A DNA stretch of 64,000 nt from Algoriphagus sp. Lineage in GTDB: Bacteria; Bacteroidota; Bacteroidia; Cytophagales; Cyclobacteriaceae. The stretch lies in NCBI RefSeq assembly GCF_029254265.1, contig NZ_JAQWXX010000073.1, positions 1 to 64,000 of the forward strand, written 5' to 3'. Within the stretch, counting starts at the first letter, position 1; each line of letters starts with the position of its first letter. A model generated the notes under the pieces. That model was given only the letters and a program-made list of their open reading frames with translations, searched no databases and was not told where the DNA came from. The translations under genes and the position numbers were made by a program. Below are positions 9,165 through 10,568 of the stretch, one piece after another.

Positions 9165-9512
9165 TTAAAAAAGTTCCAGCTGCTGCACAGGAGCTTCTGT
9201 CTCCATAGGTTTCTTTCCATAGAAAACTTCCATCATTCCAAACTGCTTGTCCGTAATCTGCATGATTCCAACCTTACCTTTTGGAGGAAGATTGATCCGA
9301 ACTCGCTTGCTATGCACTTCCGCATTTTCCCGACTGGCACAAAATCGCATGTAGATGGAAAACTGAAACATAGCAAATCCATCGTCCAACAATCTTTTGC
9401 GGAACTTACTGGCGATGCTTCGATCCTTTTTAGTATCGGTCGGCAGGTCAAAAAACACTAAGACCCACAAACTCCGATAGGCATTAAGTCTGGAATAATA
9501 GCTCTCATTCAT
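9165..9512 (-). CDS. cas2: CRISPR-associated endoribonuclease-fold protein Cas2
   Basis: A 115-aa Cas2 protein, the structural half of the Cas1-Cas2 spacer integrase. The ferredoxin-like fold is recognisable from [16 protein letters not shown] (Asp22 is the conserved first-strand Asp) and [19 protein letters not shown], then [22 protein letters not shown]-type strands and a tail ending LELF. Length is normal for type II-C. It starts at an ATG (9510-9512) that overlaps the cas1 stop (9505-9507), so translation was probably coupled to cas1. With cas1 broken, this Cas2 has no intact partner in the window. Confidence 0.95.
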
Positions 9513-10568
9513 ATTCGGGGTAAATGATTTTTCTACTTAATCCTGCAAAGCATTCGTAGAGTGAATTGGTAGTTCGGCTAGCAGCCACCATCAAGGGACT
9601 CTTCTGCCCATCGATGATCACATCCAAGGCAGGAATGGTCAATAGCTCTCTTTTAAGATCTATGTTCAACTCATCATAGGAGTCTTCTGTAGCTACGATA
9701 TGAGAAACTACCAAGTCCACGTACGGTCGATAGGGCTCCATAATATCATCAGCAAGGCAATAGGCATTATATTTATTATGATGCCAAATCCCTACGTTTG
9801 GAAGTAATCCAGAAGAAACTAATGCTCTTGCGATCACGGCGCGCAAGATAGCATAGCCATAGTTGAGCAAATTATTTGGTGGAATACCAGCTTGTCCCCT
9901 GTTGAAATCAGGAATATCAAATAAACTCGGATTATGCATTAGAATCTGTAATGAGAGTTCAAACCACAAGAAAATCAAGCATTTAGCGAATGAGGCATAG
10001 CACCGCTAAGGTGATTGAGCTAAATGCAGCAAAGCGGTTGATTTTGAAGCGGTTTGGGCTCGTAATAGGAAGCCTAATGCATATTTCGGGATAAACTCTG
10101 CCAGTAGATGGCAGCAGCTTGCGCCTCGTGGTTACTTGTGTCTCCTGAGTTTACATTTTTCGCCAGATACTCCATTCGCTTGCTCGACTTTCCTTTCTCC
10201 TTGAGCAATCCATGTTGATTGGTGATTTTGGCGGTAATGGTTTGTTGCCAAAGGTTTTTCTTTAGCGGCACACTGGCATCCAATTGCTTTCCAATCCGCT
10301 CTACCTGCTCTGTATGTCCATGCATAGGAAGTAAAAGTCCATCTGGAAGGTGCTGGGAATTGCAAGTTACGATGGCGACTTTCCGGTCAGTCAATTTCCC
10401 CAGTAATCCATTGGTGATGGTGATTTGCTGATCTTCCAAAACGATCATTCCCAGATCTTCTATTGCTACCGTACGACTTGGTTTATCATCCGTAAAAGTA
10501 ATGACCAGTTGTTCATTTTTAGTGCTGAGATAGGCTGGATTGCCGAAAAATAGGGTTCGTTTGATCAT
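9505..10568 (-). pseudogene. cas1: cas1 integrase gene interrupted by a 137-bp insertion
   Basis: Two open frames together make one Cas1. The N-terminal part (10568-10077, 164 codons) ends in a TAG created by the insertion. The C-terminal part resumes at 9933. Excising 137 bp plus one ATGCAT copy rejoins Arg-Asn-Met-His to Asn-Pro-Ser in frame and gives 306 aa, the usual type II Cas1 length. The catalytic residues are split: Glu148 (SNHEAQAAAIYW) in the first piece, His215 (GIWHH) and Glu230 (ADDIMEPYRP) in the second. Neither piece can be active alone. The start is ATG 10568 (MIKRTLFFGNPAYLS), not the TTG further upstream. The gene lies between the RAYT gene and cas2, overlapping the latter. 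Confidence 0.93.
9940..10076. mobile_element. MITE-like insertion in cas1
   Basis: 137 bp bounded by a 6-bp direct repeat ATGCAT (9934-9939 and 10077-10082), the mark of a target duplication. The ends are imperfect inverted repeats: over 26 bp, 16 positions pair, opening TAG...CTA and ending in a shared CAAACC. Inside, AAAATCAA (9971-9978)/TTGATTTT (10038-10045), GCATTTAGC (9979-9987)/GCTAAATGC (10019-10027) and CACC/GGTG around GCTAA (10001-10013) make a long cruciform. It has no coding capacity, so it would have been moved by a transposase encoded elsewhere. HUH transposases such as the nearby RAYT do not normally make target duplications, so RAYT is a poor candidate. Confidence 0.8.

Follow-up and report, generated by a model that had tools for sequence, protein, structure and literature searches.

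The CRISPR locus of this Algoriphagus strain (genome G000, a 134-contig draft) raises the question of what becomes of a Cas9 system when a mobile element lodges in cas1 and the other components look intact. The window analysed here is the whole 64,000-nucleotide stretch of DNA, and the features of the locus are collected in Table 1. On the minus strand the genes run in the order cas9, a REP-associated tyrosine transposase-like (RAYT-like) gene, cas1 in two pieces and cas2, followed by the CRISPR array. The RAYT-like gene is the only other non-overlapping ORF of the operon besides cas9, cas2 and the cas1 pieces; with the array and a tracrRNA-like RNA, this content makes the locus look like type II-C.

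Table 1. Features of the CRISPR locus, in window coordinates.
Feature	Position	Strand	Details
CRISPR array	8207..9010		10 spacers (29-30 bp); 11 repeats, 10 of them identical at 46 bp and the end one with 2 substitutions
33-bp palindrome closely following cas2	9113..9145		
cas2, intact	9165..9512	-	115 aa; TIGR01573, 69.8 bits
cas1, interrupted	9505..10568	-	297 aa without the insert, 894 bp including stop
cas1 3' part	9505..9925	-	native sequence starts at residue 160; includes His206/207 and Glu221
Target site duplication ATAAA	9921..9925		
165-bp MITE with IS1380-type ends	9926..10090	-	from copies, restored frame and alignment of relatives
Terminal inverted repeat CTCGGATTATGCATTAG	9926..9942	+	differs by 1 substitution from CCCGGATTATGCATTAG, the form in C52 and C100
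Terminal inverted repeat CCCGAAATATGCATTAG	10074..10090	-	
Target site duplication ATAAA	10091..10095		
cas1 5' part	10091..10568	-	residues 1-159 are native; the insert adds 5 residues and TAG
34-bp palindrome between RAYT-like gene and cas1	10595..10628		
RAYT-like gene	10644..11222	-	192 aa; NF047646, 64.7 bits (cut-off 80)
33-bp palindrome inside RAYT-like gene	10990..11022		
cas9, intact	11226..15935	-	1569 aa; RuvC and HNH motifs; TIGR01865, 392.7 bits; PF18541, PF13395
tracrRNA-like RNA	15974..16054	+	anti-repeat, two hairpins, T run; z -4.19

Two ORFs on the minus strand, 10074-10595 and 9505-9978, both matched PF01867 in a profile search, in agreement with the initial annotation, which had read cas1 as split by an insertion. 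The front piece comprises 164 codons and ends with YWQSLSRNMH and an in-frame TAG that lies within the insert. The insert and its duplication together measure 170 bp, which is not a multiple of 3 and therefore shifts the frame; the stop and the frameshift had both been recognised at the outset, but with a length of 143 bp. No single open frame carries both catalytic halves of Cas1. Glu148 lies on the front piece and His206 (or 207) and Glu221 on the back piece, and these are the residues that we take to be catalytic; the parting of Glu148 from its partners had been proposed correctly, but the partners had been numbered His215 and Glu230. Removal of the 165-bp element and one ATAAA yields an uninterrupted frame of 297 aa whose match to eight aligned relatives covers residues 1-296 or 1-297. 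A frame also opens upon removal of 137 bp and one ATGCAT, as first proposed, but the resulting 306-aa product contains nine residues at the joint that are absent from the relatives. A search of the draft genome for a second Cas1 (PF01867, E 0.001), which had been suggested with the original reading, returned the two cas1 pieces as sole matches.

The boundaries of the insert had to be redrawn. It had been described as a 137-bp segment between 6-bp ATGCAT duplications, and over these 137 bp the copies on contigs C52 and C100 are 97% and 95% identical to it. Their similarity runs past ATGCAT, however, until CCCGAAATATGCATTAG is reached at one end and CTAATGCATAATCCGGG at the opposite end (CCC...GGG). 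Since the similarity extends beyond it, ATGCAT is part of the inverted repeat, and we rejected it as the target duplication because it also lies inside the inverted repeats of other copies. The real element is 165 bp long and is flanked by a 5-bp duplication, ATAAA, which reads TTTAT on the cas1 coding strand. The insert ends in GAG at its 3' side, where most copies have GGG and one other copy (L165) also has GAG; owing to this end, the flanking identity at cas1 amounts to 8 bp (ATAAACTC) rather than 5. With 17-bp imperfect inverted repeats at its ends, a length of 165 bp and no transposase gene, the element has the structure of a MITE, and positions 9930-10092 fold as a single long hairpin (DNA, z -5.5). 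When up to two mismatches were allowed, the terminal repeat matched the genome 22 times and its reversed control 3 times. In the same genome, similar inverted ends also lie about 195 bp apart at C78:4876-5072 (L195) and about 100 bp apart at C82:10808-10909 (L196), and these pairs possibly represent further MITE subfamilies.

The element belongs to a family that is widespread in the genus. The 165-bp query found matches in 34 of 72 genus genomes, G000 included, with copy numbers per genome that are lower bounds, no more than 11 candidates having been scored in each. Most of the top-ranked matches span query positions 1-163, which supports the ends of the 165-bp element, the last two bases differing because the cas1 copy ends in GAG. 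Complete copies were present at 31 of the 33 element loci that we examined, and their target consensus is TTWAA, from which the TTTAT of cas1 departs. Identical 5-bp flanks were found in 19 of the 31 (shuffled mean 10.6, maximum 17 in 1000 shuffles). Two pairs of copies share their flanks and may each be one insertion; with one of each pair dropped, the count was 17 of 29 against a shuffled mean of 8.9 and a maximum of 15 in 2000 shuffles. A duplication of six or more base pairs was rejected as the family rule, since 6-bp identity occurred in 0 of 31 copies, and the 12 copies without a perfect 5-bp duplication presumably reflect decay. Other copies with duplications of their own, which the initial annotation had expected to be 6 bp long, thus exist elsewhere, with a length of 5 bp. 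The MITE-like character that it had assigned to the insert is borne out by the inverted ends, the missing transposase gene, the presence in 34 of 72 genomes and the target duplications. Three of the 31 copies (cas1, L167 and L175) lie inside a frame of at least 200 aa that extends 30 aa or more to either side of the copy, these frames being ORFs rather than confirmed genes; mid-gene insertion by this MITE is hence uncommon.

Elements that could explain its movement occur in other species of the genus. IS elements with similar ends, 1403 bp long in G001 and 1406 bp in G030, differ from the MITE by a few substitutions at the ends, so that the MITE shares its ends with full-length elements, and the G030 element sits between TTAAA repeats. 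With the IS1380 model NF033539 (cut-off 180), the transposase of G001 reaches 259.9 bits, and that of G030 is 80% identical to the G001 protein. Matches to the G001 transposase were found in 6 of 72 genus genomes. Two of these genomes (G039 and G043) have short, stop-bearing fragments, G010 has pieces only and the G046 copy contains two in-frame stops, and there are therefore few likely donors in the genus. Neither the search with the G001 transposase nor the family model detected an IS1380-family transposase in the 134-contig draft of G000. This absence could be an assembly loss; against this, the broken transposase copies of G010 are still visible at contig ends. With the MITE in 34 of 72 genomes, the transposase in 6 and none in G000, the MITE looks stranded in this strain. 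Another genome, G012, has at least 12 MITE matches and 0 transposase matches.

Comparison with relatives dates the event in relative terms. Some Cas1 match is present in 18 of the 72 genus genomes, a count that includes G000: 14 other genomes carry full-length cas1 of the same kind at 15 loci (69-95% identical, no internal stops), three further genomes have a distant Cas1 alone (33-35%), and G000 is the only one in which cas1 of this kind is in two pieces. When the site was aligned with eight relatives drawn from the best 80 of 229 cas1 loci, exactly 170 columns (165+5) were gapped in all eight. Thus an intact cas1 at the same site, which the initial annotation had predicted for close relatives, is found in them, and the insert is no common property of the homologues. 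The nearest relative is the cas1 of G041 (95% identical), a genome in which no MITE copy was found at E 0.01 or better (680 contigs, 92% complete); the contig of L069 agrees with it in length and in identity. With the insert removed, cas1 has a dN/dS of 0.032 to this relative. The dN values of the split and the intact gene to four outgroups were 0.0688 and 0.0700, 0.0719 and 0.0752, 0.0689 and 0.0634, and 0.1345 and 0.1288, respectively; being lower twice and higher twice, the split gene gives no clear sign of acceleration. It is unique at three positions compared with five mutually agreeing relatives, none of them a named catalytic position, and 2 of the 165 sites of its insert differ from the majority of the three copies. 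The insertion, which had been called recent on the strength of its repeats, is indeed recent when set against the divergence of the species, a relative rather than an absolute dating.

The remainder of the locus is in good order, as the initial annotation had held for cas9, the tracrRNA, the array and cas2: the frames are open, the expected domains are present and the repeats are preserved. For the region 8000-16500, which includes the tracrRNA-like RNA, no Rfam match was obtained at E 0.1. Among the ten spacers, six were scanned against viral contigs. The 22-base core of spacer 1 (8253-8282) occurs in at least 120 viral-contig stretches, and the cores of the five others had no viral-contig match. 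At 99 usable viral places the full 30-base spacer 1 has one mismatch (49 places), two (45), three (4) or four (1), and a full match at 0 of the 99. The gene that it targets encodes the terminase large subunit (phrog_6681, 549.9 bits) on the one contig that was tested.

Spacer acquisition requires Cas1. With cas1 in two pieces and no further Cas1 detected in the draft genome, adaptation has likely been lost; given the Cas9 domains and motifs, the tracrRNA-like RNA and 10 identical repeats out of 11, interference is likely preserved. The best explanation overall, which we consider very probable, is that an IS1380-type MITE moved in trans broke the adaptation function of cas1 and left interference in place. 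An IS1380-family transposase would have moved the 165-bp non-autonomous element into cas1 at about codons 158-160, with a 5-bp duplication that reads TTTAT in the coding direction; we infer the role of this transposase from the shared ends and the target duplication. The TAG and the frameshift would then remove working Cas1, Glu148 being parted from His206/207 and Glu221, and the locus would stop acquiring spacers. Cas9, the tracrRNA-like RNA and the 10-spacer array would still be able to interfere. As no IS1380-family transposase was found in G000, the insert would now have no route out by transposase-driven excision.

Three other readings compete with this explanation. One is that the insert serves as an on/off device, precise excision of the IS1380-type restoring cas1. 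Exact excision is a property of piggyBac. The CCC...GGG ends and TTWAA duplications of the family resemble piggyBac, for which the available text of PMC10813416 gives TTAA as the usual duplication. Against it, no IS1380-family transposase was found in G000, and we hold such a switch to be very unlikely. Slightly less credible still is a Cas1 that works although split, with the 164-codon front piece joined by a back piece restarted at the in-frame ATG of the element (in ATGCAT). This ATG, provided by the end of the element, lies six codons before native residue 160, both pieces are open and there is no clear sign of relaxed selection, but the break parts the catalytic residues, and a very recent break would produce similar rates of change as well.

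The interruption might instead be an artefact in which a repeat was wrongly stitched into cas1, a concern because G000 is a draft of 134 contigs and contains further copies of the element. Had a wrong join been made, one would not expect cas1 sequence to be duplicated in matching form at either edge of the insert, nor the difference from the aligned relatives to come out as a clean 170 bp in 8 of 8. Moreover, the cas1 copy differs from the other two near-identical copies at 5 and 8 of 165 sites, and we regard an artefact as the least probable of the alternatives, with hardly any weight left to it. We retain insertion of a MITE moved in trans as the preferred explanation. If it is correct, the locus would be an apparent clean natural knock-out of adaptation alone, with an otherwise intact Cas9 locus, a fixed spacer set and relatives with unbroken cas1; the contrast with these relatives would make it possible to test what it costs a lineage to stop learning while old immunity is kept. 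The retained interference could still pay, since the spacer set includes at least one close match to a terminase gene common in viral contigs.

A transposase-like gene occupies the slot between cas9 and cas1. Its product scores below the curated cut-offs for RAYT proteins (Table 1), including that of PF01797 (15.9 bits, cut-off 23), and yet it has the HUH motif and the associated palindromes of such proteins: the motif, NHFH, is invariant in 14 of 14 aligned RAYT-like proteins, and a decayed copy at L072 reads KHFH. Of the 18 nearest loci (L069-L086), 15 have a RAYT-like gene in this position, the L072 copy with its stops being one of them. As the mover of the cas1 insert the RAYT-like gene was rejected, given the IS1380-type ends and target duplication of the insert. 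At L069 (4634-4847 and 4911-5129) and L079 (6014-6276) the full gene is preceded by tandem partial copies of its front, some of which end near a palindrome. At ten Flavobacterium loci (L091, L094, L097, L098, L099, L106, L108, L110, L115 and L118) the slot holds a different gene of 143 aa (M[PS]YIKTYIHFVW...), presumably similar to an IS200-type transposase.

The RAYT-like gene appears to have been inherited with cas1. Identity among the RAYT-like proteins tracks that of cas1 (Spearman 0.615 over 14 loci; Mantel r 0.815, p 0.0005 over 16 loci, a set that includes L139, whose slot gene may not be RAYT, and excludes L072 for its stops and L081 and L126, which the motif filter missed). By contrast, cas9 identity does not follow that of cas1 (-0.011 over 14 loci and -0.047 over 16), and the RAYT-like gene co-varies with cas1 but not with cas9. 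Coupling of cas9 with cas1 is weak as well in the 42 loci that lack a slot gene (r 0.151, p 0.018), so that cas9 exchange is not special to the RAYT-like unit, and we rejected RAYT as its special cause on the comparison of 0.151 without the slot gene with -0.047 with it. In a tree of the 15 of 30 loci that passed the filter, the RAYT-like genes of the slot cluster together (100/99), and a relative from G033 falls inside the cluster. This gene (L225) is 68% identical to the cas-slot RAYT; G033 has no Cas1 match and contains the palindrome at 13 places.

Palindromes accompany the gene. Our script recorded perfect palindromes only (arms of at least 12, loop of at most 6), and 14 of the 15 slot loci have such palindromes, most of them close to 33 bp in length, inside the gene, 8 have them before cas1 and 12 after cas2. 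Among the best 80 of 229 loci, palindromes occur at 18 of 18 with a script-detected RAYT-like gene compared with 5 of 62 others. As for these five, a related gene fills the slot of L138 but escaped the filter, in L124 such a gene lies at another place of the locus, and at L099, L106 and L118 both the slot gene and the palindrome next to it are of another kind. Two main types of palindrome could be told apart by eye, and the type inside the gene equals that after cas2 at all 12 loci with both, the window included; a strict rule is contradicted by the pre-cas1 palindrome of L076 and the cas9-side palindromes of L075, L077 and L079, whose type is not that of the palindrome inside the gene but the other one. 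L070, which comes from Algoriphagus antarcticus DSM 15986 and has an unbroken cas1, and L071 are close to each other (cas1 dN 0.019) and differ by the presence or absence of the RAYT-like gene and its palindromes between cas9 and cas1, and both retain an imperfect palindrome after cas2 that falls under the script threshold. The palindrome type of the window occurs at 2 places in G000, compared with up to 27 in others of the 72 genomes.

The RAYT-like gene and its palindromes are thus structurally linked with cas1-cas2. This finding ties a transposase of the REP-associated type to cas1-cas2 across several genera, a link that is directly testable. A bolder reading, which we put forward tentatively and judge rather improbable, is that cas1-cas2 of Cyclobacteriaceae type II-C loci sit inside a REPtron, made up of the RAYT-like gene with its internal palindrome and often further ones before cas1 and after cas2, that is inherited with cas1 as cas9 is exchanged, that the domesticated HUH transposase acts as a functional or mobilising partner of adaptation, and that the module was shut off in this strain by a second, unrelated mobile element.

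In the open-licence literature, we found nothing on a split cas1 in Algoriphagus, on a REP-associated transposase within a cas operon or on an IS1380 MITE in Bacteroidetes, and no report of a type II-C cas1 pseudogenised by a transposon with loss of acquisition. The nearest known systems are the following. A REPtron consists of tnpA-REP (RAYT) with REP palindromes, according to the available text of PMC8266576 and PMC3116915. The cas loci resemble it, as far as these texts describe it, in that a small transposase gene of the HUH type has matching palindromes both inside it and next to it. They differ in that a palindrome often also follows cas2, the gene lies inside a cas operon and its score against the RAYT model stays under the cut-off. 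The MITE agrees with the IS1380 family (NF033539) in its ends and target duplication, which match the G001 and G030 elements, but it lacks a transposase gene and its ends are unlike theirs beyond the first 17 bases or so. For interruptions of cas genes in general, 163 natural IS insertions from 20 IS families and 57 genera were described in 2023, with a similar phenomenon for MITEs (PMC10359306). Neither IS1380 nor II-C occurs in the main text of that paper, and a cas1 case may be among its natural insertions in material beyond the main text. As far as its available text goes, the likeness is that a cas gene is broken by a transposable element flanked by target duplications, and the difference is that in the Algoriphagus locus the adaptation gene alone is struck. 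The cas1 insertion thereby joins a known kind, mobile elements in cas genes, here in the form of a MITE with IS1380-type ends that is clean and looks recent.
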